Translations under genes and position numbers: made by a program
Source of the DNA: an uncultured Sphingobacteriales bacterium
GTDB taxonomy: Bacteria; Bacteroidota; Bacteroidia; Chitinophagales; Chitinophagaceae
Assembly (NCBI GenBank): GCA_937871285.1
Contig: CALMQS010000068.1
Coordinates: 1-64,000 of the forward strand
Direction: 5' to 3'
DNA: 64,000 nucleotides
Part shown: positions 51,783 to 60,439 of the stretch, piece by piece
Layout of the letters: each line of letters begins with the position of its first letter
Position numbering within the stretch: the stretch's first letter is position 1
The notes under the pieces: generated by a model
Told to the model about the DNA's origin: nothing
Databases searched by the model: none
The model's input: only the letters and a program-made list of their open reading frames with translations

Positions 51783-51813
51783 GGTCTAAAAGACCTTATT
51801 GGTTTAGCTTTTT
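51770..51813 (+). terminator. Terminator with perfect 17-bp stem after creD
   Basis: Arms 51770-51786 and 51792-51808 are perfectly complementary around TAAAA, followed by five T. The left arm includes the last codons and stop of creD, and the T-run overlaps the stop codon of the convergent gene. Very compact gene ends. Confidence 0.85.
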
Positions 51814-54800
51814 AAAAATCCAGCCCCAGAGAAAAGTACCATACCGGCCTGCCATTAAAGAACCCGCTCATGGGCCAGCCGGCATCCACGCGGAGAAAAT
51901 AGCCCAGCAAAGTACTTCTCAAGCCGAAACCATAGCCCCCAACAAAGGGGCCTACACCATCACCTTTAAAAGTGACCTGTACCGTTCTATCATTATTCAC
52001 ATAGGATATGTAGGGACGGGTCATTTTGTTATAAGCACCGTCCCAGGCAGTACCCAGGTCAATGAACTGCACCAACTGGAAGTTTCGTAAAAAAGCATTG
52101 TTTATAGGCCGGCTCAGCAAAGTAGTAAACACCGGCAGGCGAAATTCGCTGTTGATCACAACCGCGTTATTGCCATTGGCCGCATTTTGCCTGTATCCTC
52201 GGAGATTTACCGCTAACGACTGGTATGCATAGGTTTGATTGGATGCGGGCTTGTTGGCATCATTGAACTTGGGAGCGATCCAGCTATCCGTGCCACCCAG
52301 GTAATATAATATCTTCTGGCTGCCCCATGAAATATCCACGGCGCCTCTTCCCGCCCATATAAAATTGCGGTAAATAGGATAGTAATACCGGATATCGGTG
52401 CCTACATTAAAAGTAAACTTGCCCTGCTTGTTTTTGGTAAGATCGGTATTAATGTCGGTATATATTTTATACCGCAGCCCGTTCCAGATATTCAATGCCG
52501 GGTTAATGCTGTTGTCATGCACATATTCAAAATGAGTAAGCAGCGAATTTTTAACCGTATCGCCAATGGCCAGGGCCGGGGGATAATTAACAAAGGTTTT
52601 GATAGCTACCCTGTCTGTCCGCAGCGCAACATGCGCACGCAGGCTTCTTACTTTATCCCATGGGTAAGAAACATTAACCTGGTAGATACTGGAAAATAAT
52701 TTATTCGGCAAAGCGCTCAGGGGGAAGTCATCCTGCTTATAAAACGGGTAATCGGTTACAGTAGAACGATAGTACGTAAGACCCCAGTCTAACCGCCTGC
52801 GCATATTATAAAAGCTGAACAGCACATCTTTATCATCAAGGTTCAGCCCCAGCCGGAAGCCACCAATAAATTTGATGTCTTCAAAAAGATCGGAGACCCC
52901 AATCCTTACAATACCGTTTAAATTTGAGTTGCCATTCGTAAGATATATAGGCCCGCCGCCACCGCCATAAGGCTGCCAGCGGGTCATTAATACGGAATTA
53001 TTGAAGCCCGAAACAGAATATTCCGTTGCAAACTTCAGCCTGTAATCGTATAATTTAGCCTGAGAAAGCGTTGTTTCTTCCACCGGCTGGTCATTGGCAT
53101 CAAATACTCTTCCCTGAATGGTACTATCCGGCTCATCACTTTCAAATTCGCTTTGAAAAACATTCCCCTGTCTTTGGGTGGTATCAACCGTTACCGGCTG
53201 GTAAATGGTAGCCGCACCTTTCACTATCTTATCCTGCTCCATCACTTTTTTCATATATTCCGTAGGCCGCACATTGATGTTTCTTCTTTTGAGCGCATCA
53301 TCATTTACTTTGAGCTTGTATAATAATTTCAGATCACCTTCCTGCCGTACTTCAGATACCTGTCCGCCATCACCCGCTATTCTTGTTTCCTGTAAGCCGC
53401 TTTGGTAATTGGTGATCGGAAAGGCATAAGCCGAATCGGTGGTAACTGCCATATAGCCTATTGAATCGGGCTCGTTTTTGTTCCACACCTGAAGTGTAGA
53501 GTCTAATTCAGCATTTTCGGGATTGCGTAACAGCTCATCTCCGATCCTGTATATGGTATCCACTCCGGCCTTGCGGGTAGTAAAGAATCCCGCATACCGG
53601 TTGGCAATTCCCATTTCATCATTTACAAATGTAAAATGGTTGGTATTATACTGCATCGGGTAACGTGCGTTGCCGTATTTTACATGGGTGAGCTGTGAAA
53701 TTTGCCTGAATTCAGTTCTGTTCCAGTTATCAACTAAAAAAATATTGTACGGATTGTTGGATGGCAAAGCCGTATCGCTGTTAACGGCATTGCCCGACGG
53801 GCGGTTGGACGAAAAAATGATACCTGTTCTGTTGGGAAAAGCTACAAAAGAAGGATCAAGGTCGTCATACACATCATTCGTAATCTGTTCCAGTGTTTGT
53901 TCGTTAATTTTATATACGAAAATATCGGAGTAACCATTTTTTACGGCGCTGAATAAAAGGGTATTCTGATCCAGCATATATTTTACATCAATCACCTGGT
54001 CAAATTCCTGAGGTAGCTCCTGCTTAAATGTTTTGAGCCGGGTTGTAAGGTCAAAAACAAACATTCTAAGCTTATTCCTTTCACTGTATACTACTACCAG
54101 CTTCGAACCTTTGGGGTCCCAGGCCAGTTGGGGATAGTTGGGATTGATCTCATTTTGATTATCGAGCACGCCCGACTTCAGTAAAATCTTTCTTTTAAAT
54201 CCAAAATCTTCCAGTTCAATGCGATAGATTCCTTTTTTAAACCGTACCACGGCATAAGTGCTGTTGCGCGGGTTGGGATTAGCCTGGAACCGGTAATAAT
54301 CCAGGTTCCTGTTCACTTCTTCTATAGCCACAACGCTTCCTTTGGGAGCGTTACGCCTTCCTCTCAGATCTTTATAGTATTTGTCGGACTCTTTTTCCAT
54401 GAACTCGTTCAATACTTCCTTAAATTTTTTCTTGGTTACTTTTAAGCTGGCCGAGTTCAGGCTTTTATATATTCTTGCCAGGTAAAGAAAATAAGTAACA
54501 TTGTCTTTCCGGTAATTATCCGCTATAAAGCGCCAGAAAGCATGCCCGGCAAGTTCTGGCTTATCAAATGCAAACTGGTAAAAGGTTCTGTAATTACCCG
54601 AAAGCAGGGCAGATTTTAACTGGTCGTCCAGACCGGGGTTCCAGTTTTCGGCGGCGTACATGATGTATCCTTCGGTTAGCCATTTAGGTAAGTCAAGCAG
54701 GGCCTGGTTACTGGCAAACTCACCGAGGTCGTCGCCAAACAATAAGTTTTCAAGCAAAACCTTAGCTATTCCCTGCCTGATCTGGTTTTTTAAGCTTTCG

Positions 54801-55216
54801 TGATCGCCATTAAAATAAACGATCATTTTATTATTTACAAACTTGGTAACGCCGCCTGTATTCTGCCAGTCAATACCCAACCCGATATTAGATTGCTGCA
54901 GGTCGTTAAAATTATTATATGCAACAATATTAATACGGCGCTGGGAACCATACTCCACAAAATCCTCGAGCCCCGGCAGTTCTTTTTCTGCTAATTGTGC
55001 CGCATATTTTCCAAGTGCCAACCCGTTCTGACTAAAATATACATTAAAGTTCCTGGTTTGATAATACCGCCATTTCATTTTTTCGTATTGCACCCTGTTT
55101 TTTCCAAATTCCACCGCATTTACCTGGGCGAATGCCTTCTGCCGCATCATGAATGAAAGCGTAATCCATATTAAACATCCAATGTAATACCGTAGCCTGT
55201 TCCGTAAGATTCCCAT
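51812..55216 (-). CDS. Large TolB-like propeller protein with degenerate peptidase-like N-domain and C-terminal barrel
   Basis: A 1134-residue secreted protein (signal peptide MGILRNRLRYYIGCLIWITL...AFAQ). Residues ~45-195 resemble a gluzincin peptidase domain: strands like RRINIVAYNNFND and a segment ending LDLPKWLTEGYIMYAAE, where peptidases keep the third zinc ligand; but the HExxH helix is replaced by QIRQGIAKVLLEN, so it is probably inactive. Residues ~330-560 are TolB/WD40-like blades (YPQLAWDPKGSKLVVVYSER, DPSFVAFPNRTGIIFSSNRP). The last ~400 residues read as outer-membrane beta strands ending in WYFSLGLDF. Upstream ATGs at 55228 and 55261 are possible but less fitting. Function unknown. 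Confidence 0.75.
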   Translation of the reverse strand: MGILRNRLRYYIGCLIWITLSFMMRQKAFAQVNAVEFGKNRVQYEKMKWRYYQTRNFNVYFSQNGLALGKYAAQLAEKELPGLEDFVEYGSQRRINIVAYNNFNDLQQSNIGLGIDWQNTGGVTKFVNNKMIVYFNGDHESLKNQIRQGIAKVLLENLLFGDDLGEFASNQALLDLPKWLTEGYIMYAAENWNPGLDDQLKSALLSGNYRTFYQFAFDKPELAGHAFWRFIADNYRKDNVTYFLYLARIYKSLNSASLKVTKKKFKEVLNEFMEKESDKYYKDLRGRRNAPKGSVVAIEEVNRNLDYYRFQANPNPRNSTYAVVRFKKGIYRIELEDFGFKRKILLKSGVLDNQNEINPNYPQLAWDPKGSKLVVVYSERNKLRMFVFDLTTRLKTFKQELPQEFDQVIDVKYMLDQNTLLFSAVKNGYSDIFVYKINEQTLEQITNDVYDDLDPSFVAFPNRTGIIFSSNRPSGNAVNSDTALPSNNPYNIFLVDNWNRTEFRQISQLTHVKYGNARYPMQYNTNHFTFVNDEMGIANRYAGFFTTRKAGVDTIYRIGDELLRNPENAELDSTLQVWNKNEPDSIGYMAVTTDSAYAFPITNYQSGLQETRIAGDGGQVSEVRQEGDLKLLYKLKVNDDALKRRNINVRPTEYMKKVMEQDKIVKGAATIYQPVTVDTTQRQGNVFQSEFESDEPDSTIQGRVFDANDQPVEETTLSQAKLYDYRLKFATEYSVSGFNNSVLMTRWQPYGGGGGPIYLTNGNSNLNGIVRIGVSDLFEDIKFIGGFRLGLNLDDKDVLFSFYNMRRRLDWGLTYYRSTVTDYPFYKQDDFPLSALPNKLFSSIYQVNVSYPWDKVRSLRAHVALRTDRVAIKTFVNYPPALAIGDTVKNSLLTHFEYVHDNSINPALNIWNGLRYKIYTDINTDLTKNKQGKFTFNVGTDIRYYYPIYRNFIWAGRGAVDISWGSQKILYYLGGTDSWIAPKFNDANKPASNQTYAYQSLAVNLRGYRQNAANGNNAVVINSEFRLPVFTTLLSRPINNAFLRNFQLVQFIDLGTAWDGAYNKMTRPYISYVNNDRTVQVTFKGDGVGPFVGGYGFGLRSTLLGYFLRVDAGWPMSGFFNGRPVWYFSLGLDF

Positions 55217-55270
55217 AATTTCGTACATTCTTATATTAAAATTAGCGTTTTTAAGGTACAAAAAAACATT

Positions 55271-56156: not shown

Positions 56157-58346
56157 TCACTCTATACTTCCCATTTGCCGGGTATATGCTTTAATAAATA
56201 AAGCGCCCAGGTTTTTATAAGGCGGTATATAATTATCGAATCGCTCTTTGGCATCGCCTGTTGGGAACTGGGCGGCCAGGTCTTTCCATATAGGCAGCCA
56301 TTCAATATCTTTTCCTTCTTTCAGGTCGTCGTTGATGGCTTTAAGAATGGGTTCATTAATAATTCTTGTGCCTACTTCCTTTGAAGAAATAATATGCGCG
56401 TCGGGACATGTTTTCAGCACATCGTCTAAGTTATGAAACCCGCCACAGGAGCCTAATATAACTATTTTAGAGGAAGGGGGGAGGTTACGGATCGTAGATC
56501 CTACCCAGTAACTGTGTCCGCGGTGTATGGTTATTCCGGGTTCAAGATTGTTTTTTTCCAGGTACTGCCGCAAACGCGTTTGGGCAATGGAGTCTAATCC
56601 CTTTTCATAATCTAACGGGAGATTCGCATAAATGAAAACCGGTTTTCCTTTGGTTGATTTTATTTCCACCCATTCGGCATTGCGCTTTACTTTCCATTCG
56701 GCGCCCGTAAACATCGTCATAAAATTGGCGTAGGATTCTTTACCGTCCTGGTCTCCGTAAAAGAAAACCTGTTGTACGATCCGGCCGCTGTCATCCAAAA
56801 GATCTTTATAATTCACCCGGTATACAGGCGGTATGTTCAGCTTTGCGGAAACATCTATGCTGCTGTCCTCCGATGACTGGAAAATAATTTGTAAAATATC
56901 ATAGATAGCGATAGCCCTTTTTTCGTGTTTATCCCTGGCCTGCAGCAGGTTCTTTTCAATTTCCTGGTCTATCAGCTTTTTTACCAGCGGGTTTTTTATG
57001 CTCCCGTACGAATCGGCCACATCCACCGCGTCTTCAAGGGTGCCGCTTTTTTCGAGTCCTCTTACAAAAGCCATCATTAAACGCTGCGAATTACTGTCGG
57101 GCATGGTTTGCAGAAATTCATCTAACTTATTATAACCGGCGGCCAGCCTGATGAACTTCTTAAAGCGGTCGAACCTAACGCTCATCAGTAAGCTATCACC
57201 AGAAGGAACAGCCATGCGTTGCATCATGCGGTTAAATATTCCTTTATAGCTGGAAGTATACATCACATCTTCTCCCAGCACAATCAGGTAATACAACTCC
57301 TGTGGGGTGAGCGGGTCAGTAATTTTAAATCTTGCATTATCAGGCAGGTCGTGCAGGGCGTTCACCTGGTCTATAAATACATTTTTAGCCCTATCCTGCA
57401 GTTTAAACAATAATTTATCGTAAGCCAGCGGAGTATCTTTTTTGATGAGCCTTTCCGCATAACCAATCTGTGTTTTCACCAGCAACCGGTAATACAGCAG
57501 GTTATCATCCATGGCATTAAATATATCGGGCATGGTTAGGCGCCCGTGCACAATTTCGTCAAGAAAGGGATAATATTGCTGCCCGCTTTTACTGCTGGCA
57601 ATAGCCACTATCGCCTTAACAAGCGAATCGTTATTTCTCCTGATCAGGCGGCCTGCCTGGGTACGCGTGGCTGCGGCGTAATCGTACAGCTGGTTGGGAT
57701 TCCGGTACGCTGCCACCCTTACAAGACTGTCTGCAAAAGGAACGCTATAGTACTGCTCCAGCATGGCCAGCGTTTTATCAGGATTTTTCTGACAGAACTT
57801 CCTGAACAAAATGACCCGCGACGCCTCAAATCCCTGGTTCTCATACATCGCGCTTCCGCTGCCATTAATATTGATGTTGCCTACTTCGTAAGAGGCGTTT
57901 TCAACAATAGAGCGGATATCCTGGTTTTTGATATCCGCCGCCATCAGGGCTTTATAGTTTTCCAGTAGCTCCTGTGCAAGTACGGCATTAAAGGTTTTGG
58001 TACGCCAGCCGGCATTGAATCCCCGGAGAAGATTTTCCAGTCCGCTCAGGTATTTAACTTTTAGCCTGTGATCGAGCCGGGTACCTGATTCTATGGAATC
58101 TTTCAAAATATTTACCTCTTTTATTAATGCATTGGTAACTAATGTATTAATAGCCTTATTGGCTGAAGCATTAACCCATTCACCGTTTCCGCCGTTAAAA
58201 CGGAGGGCAAGCTGTTGCTCTTTCTCAATATTTTCATGATAACGAACCCGGGCTATATCAACTTTCTTTTTTAAAGTATCAATATGGGCGTTTGCAGCTT
58301 CAGAAAAGAGAAATAGTAATAGGAGTATAGATATCGTCTTATACAT
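56157..58346 (-). CDS. Secreted protein with C-terminal clan CD (caspase-like) His/Cys pair
   Basis: A 729-residue protein with a signal peptide (MYKTISILLLLFLFSEAANA). Residues ~20-480 are almost wholly helical, without recognised domains. The last ~220 residues are an alpha/beta region: QVFFYGDQDGKESYANFM, PVFIYANLPLD, then ITIHRGHSYWV with H611 and IVILGSCGG with C634. A His after a strand followed 23 residues later by a Cys after the next strand is the arrangement of clan CD peptidases (caspases, gingipains, CHAT). It could be a secreted cysteine peptidase or an inactive relative; family not identified. The start at 58346 is chosen for the signal peptide; an in-frame ATG at 58421 exists. 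It lies alone, divergent from the two-component genes. Confidence 0.7.
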   Translation of the reverse strand: MYKTISILLLLFLFSEAANAHIDTLKKKVDIARVRYHENIEKEQQLALRFNGGNGEWVNASANKAINTLVTNALIKEVNILKDSIESGTRLDHRLKVKYLSGLENLLRGFNAGWRTKTFNAVLAQELLENYKALMAADIKNQDIRSIVENASYEVGNININGSGSAMYENQGFEASRVILFRKFCQKNPDKTLAMLEQYYSVPFADSLVRVAAYRNPNQLYDYAAATRTQAGRLIRRNNDSLVKAIVAIASSKSGQQYYPFLDEIVHGRLTMPDIFNAMDDNLLYYRLLVKTQIGYAERLIKKDTPLAYDKLLFKLQDRAKNVFIDQVNALHDLPDNARFKITDPLTPQELYYLIVLGEDVMYTSSYKGIFNRMMQRMAVPSGDSLLMSVRFDRFKKFIRLAAGYNKLDEFLQTMPDSNSQRLMMAFVRGLEKSGTLEDAVDVADSYGSIKNPLVKKLIDQEIEKNLLQARDKHEKRAIAIYDILQIIFQSSEDSSIDVSAKLNIPPVYRVNYKDLLDDSGRIVQQVFFYGDQDGKESYANFMTMFTGAEWKVKRNAEWVEIKSTKGKPVFIYANLPLDYEKGLDSIAQTRLRQYLEKNNLEPGITIHRGHSYWVGSTIRNLPPSSKIVILGSCGGFHNLDDVLKTCPDAHIISSKEVGTRIINEPILKAINDDLKEGKDIEWLPIWKDLAAQFPTGDAKERFDNYIPPYKNLGALFIKAYTRQMGSIE

Positions 58347-58542
58347 ATAATATTGAACTGCTACAAAATTAAGGATAATAGCTGAAGGAGGCTTGTTGCC
58401 CTGGTTCCGAACAAAAAGCACTTATTTAAGGCCACCAGTACCTCTACCACCTAACGTTAACCAAGAGAATTTAGTGCCAAACCCCGGAAATGGATTAACA
58501 ATTTCATAATCCGGGCTTTTAGGTGGGTATACCCGCCGGGAT

Positions 58543-58550
58543 TATTTTTG
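58543..58550 (+). promoter_or_regulatory. TAnnTTTG -7 box before response-regulator gene
   Basis: TATTTTTG lies 16 bases before the ATG at 58567. A TTTTAGG stretch at the -33 position is not a match to TTG, so only the -7 part is supported. Confidence 0.4.
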
Positions 58551-58566
58551 CGTAAACATATTGTTA

Positions 58567-59247
58567 ATGGATCAGAAAGGGAAGAAAATACTGATTGCTG
58601 ATGATGAACCGGATATACTGGAAATTATCAGCTACAACCTGGGAAAGGAAGGATATGAAACCATTACGGCAAAGGACGGAGAGGAGTCCCTTCACAAAGC
58701 AAAGCTTTTTAAACCCGATTTGATTGTGCTGGATGTTATGATGCCCAATAAGAACGGCATGGAGGTTTGTAAAACACTGCGGTCATTACCCGCCTTCCAT
58801 GATACCCTTATTATATTTCTTACGGCTTTAAATGATGAACTATCGCATATCAGGGGGCTGGAGTATGGCGCAGACGATTATATAAGCAAACCGGTAAGTC
58901 CTAAAGTATTGGTTTCCAAGGTAAACGCCCTGTTCAGAAGGGTTCAGAAACCTGAAAATGATAAAATTTTGCAGGTGGGAAATATTACTATTGATCCCGT
59001 AAAATTCATTGTTCTTGTTGATGAAAGGGAGGTAACATTAGCCAAAAAAGAATTCGAGCTGCTTCACCTGCTGGCTACCAAACCGGGAAGGGTATTCCTC
59101 CGCAATGAAATCTTAAGCCAGATATGGGGAACGGAAGTAATTGTAGGCGACAGAACAATTGATGTGCACATCAGGAAGATACGCCAGAAACTGGGCATAG
59201 ATTGCATTACTACCGTAAAAGGAGTAGGGTATAAGATTGTAATTTAA
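58567..59247 (+). CDS. OmpR/PhoB-family response regulator
   Basis: A 226-residue two-component regulator. The receiver domain has D12, D13, phospho-acceptor D56 (DLIVLDVMMP) and K108 in DYISKPV. The C-terminal winged helix shows LAKKEFELLHLLATKPGRVF and VGDRTIDVHIRKIRQKLG, typical of PhoB/OmpR types. It precedes a PhoR-like histidine kinase gene on the same strand by 142 bases. The ATG at 58567 follows an in-frame TTG at 58561 that is less likely. Phosphate control is one possibility; there is no pst or phoU gene in the window to support it. Confidence 0.93.
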   Translation: MDQKGKKILIADDEPDILEIISYNLGKEGYETITAKDGEESLHKAKLFKPDLIVLDVMMPNKNGMEVCKTLRSLPAFHDTLIIFLTALNDELSHIRGLEYGADDYISKPVSPKVLVSKVNALFRRVQKPENDKILQVGNITIDPVKFIVLVDEREVTLAKKEFELLHLLATKPGRVFLRNEILSQIWGTEVIVGDRTIDVHIRKIRQKLGIDCITTVKGVGYKIVI

Positions 59248-59389: not shown

Positions 59390-60439
59390 ATGCTCACTAC
59401 AAAAAATATATCTCCCCGCCAGTTGGCGGGTTTTACGGCTTTCTTTATCGCACTTCCGGTTGCCGCCGGCATATTTTTCCTGAAGCCCTTATGGTGGGTG
59501 TTTTTACTGGCTTTTGCCATCATTATGAGCGGAAGCTATGCGCTCATATTATATACGCTTCAGCGGTTCATTTACCGGAAAATAAAACTCATATATAAAT
59601 TCATTTATCAAACAAAAGCCAGTAAAAGAGAGGAGTTCTATTACAAAAGCCTCCTTCCCCAAAAAAGCATAGATGAAGTAAGCGCGGATGTAGAAAAATG
59701 GGCCGAACAAAAGAAAAAGGAAATAGAGGTATTAAAAGCAAATGAAGCTTTCCGTAAGGAGTTTTTGCAAAATTTTTCGCATGAGTTAAAAACGCCCATT
59801 TTTGCCATACAGGGATATATAGAAACCTTATTGGCCGGCGCTATTGAAAACCCGGAGGTAAGCACAAAATTTCTTAGCAACGCATCCAAGAATACTACCC
59901 GGTTAGTAAACCTGCTGAGCGACCTGGACGCCATTACGAAATTAGAGAGTGGTGAGCAAATATTGTATAAAGAGAATTTTGTAGTGCAGGATCTGATACG
60001 TGAGGTGTTTGATTCACTTTCATTACTGGCTGCTAAAAGGGATGTTAAACTGGCCATAAAGAAAGGCTGCGAAACACCCATCACCGTTTTTGCCGATAAA
60101 GAAAAGATAAGACAGGTGTTTATTAATCTTACAGACAATGCTATCAAATATGGCAAATCAAGCGGTAATGTAACGGCCAGCGCCTATATAACAGATGAAA
60201 AGCACGTGCTGGTAGAGGTTAGTGATGACGGTATTGGCATCAGCGAAGAACATATTCCGCGTATAGCTGAAAGATTTTACCGGACAGATGCGGCCAGAAG
60301 CAGAAAGGAAGGAGGAAGCGGGCTGGGACTGGCTATTTGCAAACATATTATTGAAGCGCACGGACAAAGTATCCATATCCGGAGCAAACCGGATGTAGGT
60401 ACTACTTTCGGTTTTACTTTGAATGCAAAAAAAGACTAA
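59390..60439 (+). CDS. Sensor histidine kinase, PhoR-like
   Basis: A 349-residue inner-membrane kinase. Two hydrophobic helices near 11-31 and 34-56 (PLWWVFLLAFAIIMSGSYAL) are separated by only a few residues, so there is almost no periplasmic sensing domain. Then a linker coiled coil, the H-box FSHELKTPIFAIQGYIE with H131, N-box NLTDNAIKYGKSSG, G1 VSDDGIGIS, F-box ERFYRTDAARSR and G2 GGSGLGLAICKHI. No PAS or HAMP domain is evident. Likely partner of the response regulator just upstream. Lack of a sensor domain suggests it senses through membrane helices or partner proteins. Confidence 0.92.
   Translation: MLTTKNISPRQLAGFTAFFIALPVAAGIFFLKPLWWVFLLAFAIIMSGSYALILYTLQRFIYRKIKLIYKFIYQTKASKREEFYYKSLLPQKSIDEVSADVEKWAEQKKKEIEVLKANEAFRKEFLQNFSHELKTPIFAIQGYIETLLAGAIENPEVSTKFLSNASKNTTRLVNLLSDLDAITKLESGEQILYKENFVVQDLIREVFDSLSLLAAKRDVKLAIKKGCETPITVFADKEKIRQVFINLTDNAIKYGKSSGNVTASAYITDEKHVLVEVSDDGIGISEEHIPRIAERFYRTDAARSRKEGGSGLGLAICKHIIEAHGQSIHIRSKPDVGTTFGFTLNAKKD

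Follow-up and report, generated by a model that had tools for sequence, protein, structure and literature searches.

Within the window, the whole 64,000-nucleotide stretch of DNA that was analysed, the minus strand from 56157 to 58346 is a single open frame of 729 residues plus a stop, beginning at an ATG at 58346 and ending at a stop codon at 56157-56159; the plus strand of the same interval is non-coding, with many stops. The translation suggests an exported protein that combines an alpha-solenoid with a caspase fold. An earlier note, made from the letters of the sequence, had called a 729-residue protein with a signal peptide, and both parts of that claim hold: the frame is exact, and the N-terminus is a canonical Sec signal peptide (residues 1-20, MYKTISILLLLFLFSEAANA, 58287-58346, minus strand), recognised by sequence, hydropathy and family comparison, with an AxA-type site predicted to be cut before H. 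The N-terminus contains no lipobox, and equivalent hydrophobic N-termini are present in nearly all homologues. No further membrane-like segment stands out in the protein (the highest 19-residue hydropathy is 0.73), so the simplest reading of its sequence is a soluble exported protein, most likely periplasmic.

Gene neighbourhood and the divergent two-component system

The same note had placed the gene next to envelope genes, which is only partly right judging from the Pfam calls of the neighbours: a metallo-beta-lactamase-fold hydrolase, a large protein without a Pfam match, CreD, a response regulator, a histidine kinase and a polysaccharide deacetylase. The product of the minus-strand gene at 51812-55261, 1149 residues with no Pfam match, looks like a TolB-type propeller with an outer-membrane barrel after it, and in several genera this gene is kept beside the metallo-beta-lactamase-fold gene.

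The divergent neighbour (58561-59247, plus strand) encodes an OmpR/PhoB-type response regulator, identified by Pfam Response_reg and Trans_reg_C and by conservation of the neighbour, whose likely true start is the ATG at 58567. The histidine kinase gene lies at 59390-60439 on the plus strand (Pfam HisKA and HATPase_c). As read from sequence, its product crosses the membrane with two segments; the periplasmic loop is nearly missing, at only a few residues, so the kinase itself lacks a periplasmic sensor domain. The divergent intergenic region that the 729-residue frame shares with the regulator spans 58347-58566. It holds two boxes of the form TAnnTTTG, which we take to be the Bacteroidota -7 promoter consensus, one for the protease-like gene (58364-58371, minus strand) and one for the regulator (58543-58550, plus strand). 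A further element, TTATGAAATTGTTAA (58495-58509, minus strand), recurs in the same intergenic region in many genera and may be a site for regulator binding. It has a single exact copy in this genome, and on that ground a regulon defined by it was rejected.

The divergent arrangement with the regulator was found at 74 loci, some of them repeat fetches, which yielded 55 distinct intergenic sequences; at many of these loci the protein corresponding to ours is only 40-49% identical. Exceptions include second copies of the gene, other families of the order, and some Chitinophagaceae genomes in which a glyA-like gene adjoins it. A homologue of the kinase was present in 11 of the 11 genomes checked. 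The kinase is also found in two Chitinophagaceae genomes that lack the gene, and in places where the two stand apart, so that an obligate pairing with the two-component system was rejected. The link to this core response regulator-kinase pair is common, not obligatory, and co-regulation of the gene and the regulator is plausible.

Predicted fold and conserved residues

The full-length AlphaFold2 model, run with 43 sequences, has a mean pLDDT of 90.7 (92.4 for the catalytic domain alone). Helices extend from residue 31 to 502, in keeping with the long helical N-terminal region described in the earlier note. From the model and from conservation we delimit a predicted alpha-solenoid at residues 31-504 (56835-58256, minus strand), the best conserved part of which is a patch from N329 to S365 (NxLH ... 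YTSS). The alpha/beta part starts at about residue 505, and the model, VIA-align and conservation together outline a C-terminal caspase-haemoglobinase-like domain at residues 505-729 (56160-56834, minus strand). This domain is predicted to begin with a strand (523-529), a helix (533-544), three strands (551-555, 559-564 and 570-575) and a helix (584-598). Next come a strand (605-609) followed by H611, a helix (612-620) and a strand (628-631) followed by C634, and it ends with a helix (636-646), a strand (651-655), a helix (661-676) and the C-terminal helix (713-726).

Clan CD peptidases carry the dyad where core strands 3 and 4 end on their C-terminal side, and a Gly stands beside the His (PMC4357240). 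In the predicted secondary structure the His and then the Cys each follow consecutive strands, which directly precede H611 and C634, so the strand-His, strand-Cys pattern first proposed from the sequence is reproduced by the model. The Gly is also in place: G610, directly before H611, is present in 54/54 aligned homologues.

The caspase-haemoglobinase fold is defined by a strand order of 2-1-3-4 with three helices. The succession of elements along the predicted chain fits it, and clan CD structures reach Z 8.2-9.5, with GTPases tying. When the full model was compared with known structures by VIA, separase 5mz6 came first (Z 9.5, 157 residues aligned, 3.5 A), in company with separase 5fby (Z 8.8), DdvA 8rot (Z 8.6, 155 residues), C11 iotapain 6nag (Z 8.5, 185 aligned, 4.5 A) and Csx29 (8.3 and 8.2). 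Small GTPases are interleaved with these at Z 8-8.9, about level with clan CD, but align mostly 120-155 residues against 143-187 for the clan CD entries. The isolated domain gives a similar picture, with C11 iotapain (Z 8.5, 183 residues) tying with GTPases that align fewer residues. Foldseek alone puts small GTPases above clan CD; they come first when the isolated domain is the query and rank high with the full model. Gingipain and caspase structures do not appear among the structural matches listed. Because GTPases score about equally, the fold is supportive rather than decisive, and it is the motifs and their conservation that decide. The earlier note would have given up its proposal had the predicted fold been unrelated to caspase-haemoglobinase; the order of elements instead fits that fold, with the similarity to small GTPases about equally strong.

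H611 (56514-56516) lies in the motif HRGHSY (residues 608-613, 56508-56525, minus strand) and C634 (56445-56447) in GSCGG (residues 632-636, 56439-56453, minus strand), both exactly where that first reading had put them, and conservation among homologues marks them as the predicted catalytic His and Cys. C634 is present in 54/54 aligned homologues and H611 in 53/54, a pattern far beyond chance; among 98 distinct complete homologues of a wider set, the counts are 98/98 for the Cys and 97/98 for the His. All 95 sequences that match the full motif pattern, out of these 98, have a His-Cys spacing of 23 residues. The residues flanking the dyad are among the best conserved positions, and the positions invariant in the 54 aligned homologues are HRG (608-610), S612, GSCG (632-635), N664, W683, W687, Y706 and P709. 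In three sequences of the wider set, two of them from one gene, S633 is replaced by Asp or Gly and the Cys is retained, so the Cys is held more strictly than its neighbour. A third motif, D532-x-D534-G535 (56742-56753, minus strand), sits in the loop that joins the domain's first strand to its first helix and is conserved in Chitinophagales and Azospirillum; it is a possible S1-pocket or metal site. The only loss of the catalytic His that was seen is in a long paralogue of 935 residues (L050, 962-3766), which has HRGYS instead of HRGHS. The genome concerned also has a second, intact copy, of which this paralogue is a possible pseudo-protease partner.

Family membership, spread and long paralogues

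Scans with Pfam, NCBIfam and PADLOC and a sequence search of the PDB returned nothing credible for the 729-residue protein, and a few homologues received sporadic EF-hand scores in the Pfam scan (best E-values 0.007-0.3). CHAT (PF12770) matched neither the protein nor any of 50 catalytic domains; two true CHAT genes lie elsewhere in the same genome. Separase C50 (PF03568) matched neither the protein nor anything else in its genome, the curated C11 model (PF03415) did not match the protein, and gingipain C25 and caspase C14 were both absent from the whole-Pfam scans. Profile-profile comparison with locally built CHAT and C11 alignments did no better than with control families, a test that lacks power, since CHAT against C11 was just as weak in it. 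The C-terminal beta-sandwich sorting domain of type IX secretion is absent, the C-terminus being predicted as helical (H713-726). Viral contigs and phages yielded no relatives, and no description of the solenoid-caspase family was found in open-licence papers.

By the curated models, then, this looks like an unnamed clan CD family outside CHAT, C11, C14, C25 and C50. The earlier note had likened the pattern to gingipain, CHAT and metacaspases and had offered a new secreted peptidase family or an inactive relative as the outcome. Since no known family model matches, a new family fits better than any of those three, and sequence, conservation and predicted fold are in line with it; an inactive relative is disfavoured because the dyad is invariant.

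At least one homologue was found by protein search in 40 of 58 related genomes. Among genomes sampled from the order, 83/85 of those from Chitinophagaceae carry the gene, against 46/213 from other families, and such retention in Chitinophagaceae indicates that it is under selection. Searches of 395 genomes of the phylum with full-length and catalytic-domain profiles gave credible matches confined to Chitinophagaceae. The family is thus near-universal in Chitinophagaceae and scattered through the remainder of the order, and no member was seen in the other Bacteroidota sampled.

Relatives annotated “hypothetical protein” are carried by four plasmids of Azospirillum (L165-L168), an alphaproteobacterial genus and so from another phylum. 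Against the Chitinophagales profile these relatives give E-values of 1e-44 to 2e-54 (on a scale of ten million sequences); their identity is 26-31% in the catalytic domain and drops to 17-19% in the solenoid. HRGHSY and GSCG are intact in these relatives, and D532, D534 and G535 are also retained. The concern that His and Cys might not be conserved in homologues, raised when the dyad was first proposed, is thus answered by a dyad kept across two phyla. The Azospirillum occurrence suggests horizontal transfer or patchy sampling. On three of the four plasmids, ethanolamine ammonia-lyase genes are found close by and a LysE-family transporter follows directly after the gene. In L167 (5381-7597) and L168 (5573-7597) a short in-frame tandem repeat, GETPTRSGI / GETPARGT, separates the solenoid from the catalytic domain.

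In several other families of the order a paralogue of about 930-1220 residues stands in tandem with the gene, and the long paralogues read here contain the helical module about twice and then one catalytic domain. The helical module is duplicated in L044 (930-4184) and L045 (2974-6213), and L046 (1892-4924) and L050 have an extra helical region, each with one catalytic domain; these four paralogues measure about 935-1085 residues, and several of them stand in tandem with a copy of normal length.

A proposed envelope protease, its alternatives and its closest relatives

We hypothesize that the protein is an exported cysteine endopeptidase from a clan CD family that has no name so far. Its layout would be that of separase or Csx29, with a helical solenoid at the N-terminus and a caspase-haemoglobinase domain at the C-terminus, in which the dyad H611/C634 carries out a solenoid-guided cleavage in the envelope, and we hold this reading, taken as a whole, to be probable. 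Sec would export the protein, and its signal peptide would be cleaved off. The catalytic dyad would then be formed by H611 and C634, where two adjacent central strands end, and would attack one or a few peptide bonds. The solenoid, with its conserved patch N329-S365, would probably recognise a specific envelope protein as substrate, keep the active site silent before a partner binds, or do both, in the manner of the helical arms of separase and Csx29. In known solenoid-caspase proteins, the helical part binds partners or substrates and switches the dyad. In Csx29, an allosteric chain leads from the TPR domain to the C658/H615 dyad (PMC10028731). By analogy with such proteins, limited cuts in an envelope protein would be expected. 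The two acidic residues of the first loop, D532 and D534, would point to a basic P1; however, K656 argues against one, and the two acids could instead bind a metal.

An extension of this hypothesis, in which the exported separase-like protease is the envelope-side input of the adjacent two-component system and the regulator controls both promoters, strikes us as improbable. In that reading the protease would cut or bind an envelope partner and so set the activity of a kinase that has almost no periplasmic loop.

Other readings start from the same data. The caspase fold might be a binding module fused to the solenoid, a non-catalytic pseudo-protease scaffold comparable to CHAT1 of Csx29, itself a protein that contains a pseudo-caspase domain (PMC10028731). 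The HRGYS of L050 is consistent with this, in that His loss is tolerated in one duplicate. Pseudo-enzymes normally lose catalytic and flanking residues first, whereas here the Cys (98/98), the His (97/98) and their flanking residues are among the most conserved, and we consider a scaffold unlikely. Likewise an outside chance is a clan CD transpeptidase or ligase of the periplasm, with a genuine dyad that serves chiefly for joining and less for cutting. Bacteroidota already use a sortase-like mechanism in their envelope, according to one study (PMC4560394). Clan CD includes transpeptidases, and the conservation within the family fits hydrolysis and transfer alike. PorU, presumably the sortase-like enzyme of that study, is a C25 relative acting as a sortase, and legumain ligases likewise join. 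However, Azospirillum also carries the family, which is therefore not tied to a Bacteroidota-only substrate, and the analysis turned up neither a substrate tag nor a sorting signal.

The top rank of small GTPases for the isolated domain in Foldseek, together with the tied VIA Z scores, could be taken to mean a secreted small-GTPase-like alpha/beta domain unrelated to cysteine peptidases, whose His and Cys might, for example, bind a metal. This reading was rejected on Walker A and export grounds, and we regard it as very improbable. The Walker A motif GxxxxGK[ST] is absent, GDQDGK being one residue short and K536 not conserved, and GTP is not expected where an exported protein resides. GTPases have nothing that corresponds to the invariant HRGHS and GSCG at the strand ends, and the best structural matches include clan CD entries, which align more residues. 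The invariant dyad, the Gly beside the His and the lack of Walker A speak for clan CD. We are probably dealing with a real but undescribed family of envelope proteases.

The separase-type architecture, in which a helical arm controls a caspase domain, has been described in chromosome segregation and in a CRISPR system, in both cases inside the cell. That nearly all Chitinophagaceae keep an exported family of this kind suggests that the bacterial envelope has a site-specific proteolytic step, one that none of the database models searched names. The motif pair HRGHSY and GSCGG, with 23 residues from His to Cys, provides a handle for annotation, and H611 and C634 are two candidate residues for mutation.

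Among known systems, separase (C50) gives the best structural Z and shares the helical N-terminal arm, the C-terminal caspase-like domain and a short His-Cys spacing, about 26 in separase and near the 23 of this family. Separase is eukaryotic and cytoplasmic or nuclear, whereas the 729-residue protein is exported, smaller and without a PF03568 match. Csx29, the TPR-CHAT protein of Craspase, likewise has helical repeats that regulate a terminal caspase domain with the dyad H615/C658 (PMC10028731), but it is cytoplasmic and CRISPR-bound, with an extra pseudo-CHAT domain and a His-Cys spacing of 43; our protein has no PADLOC match. The C11 clostripain-like peptidases (iotapain, PmC11) are secreted clan CD enzymes of Bacteroidota with Z 7.9-8.5 over 183-187 aligned residues, and the three strands between the first two helices of our domain fit the PmC11 sheet (PMC4357240). 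However, they have no large solenoid, and the spacing in PmC11 is 46 (H133/C179). The C-terminal part of DdvA, a Myxococcus transmembrane anti-sigma factor, aligns to the caspase-like domain in the structural comparison; DdvA is membrane-bound and has no sequence match to our protein. Gingipain (C25) differs in its spacing of 33, its C-terminal Ig domain and its type IX secretion signal, none of which the 729-residue protein has. It is nevertheless, like the protein proposed here, an exported clan CD protein of Bacteroidota with a Gly-flanked His and an acid in the first loop or helix, which in gingipain binds P1 (PMC4357240).
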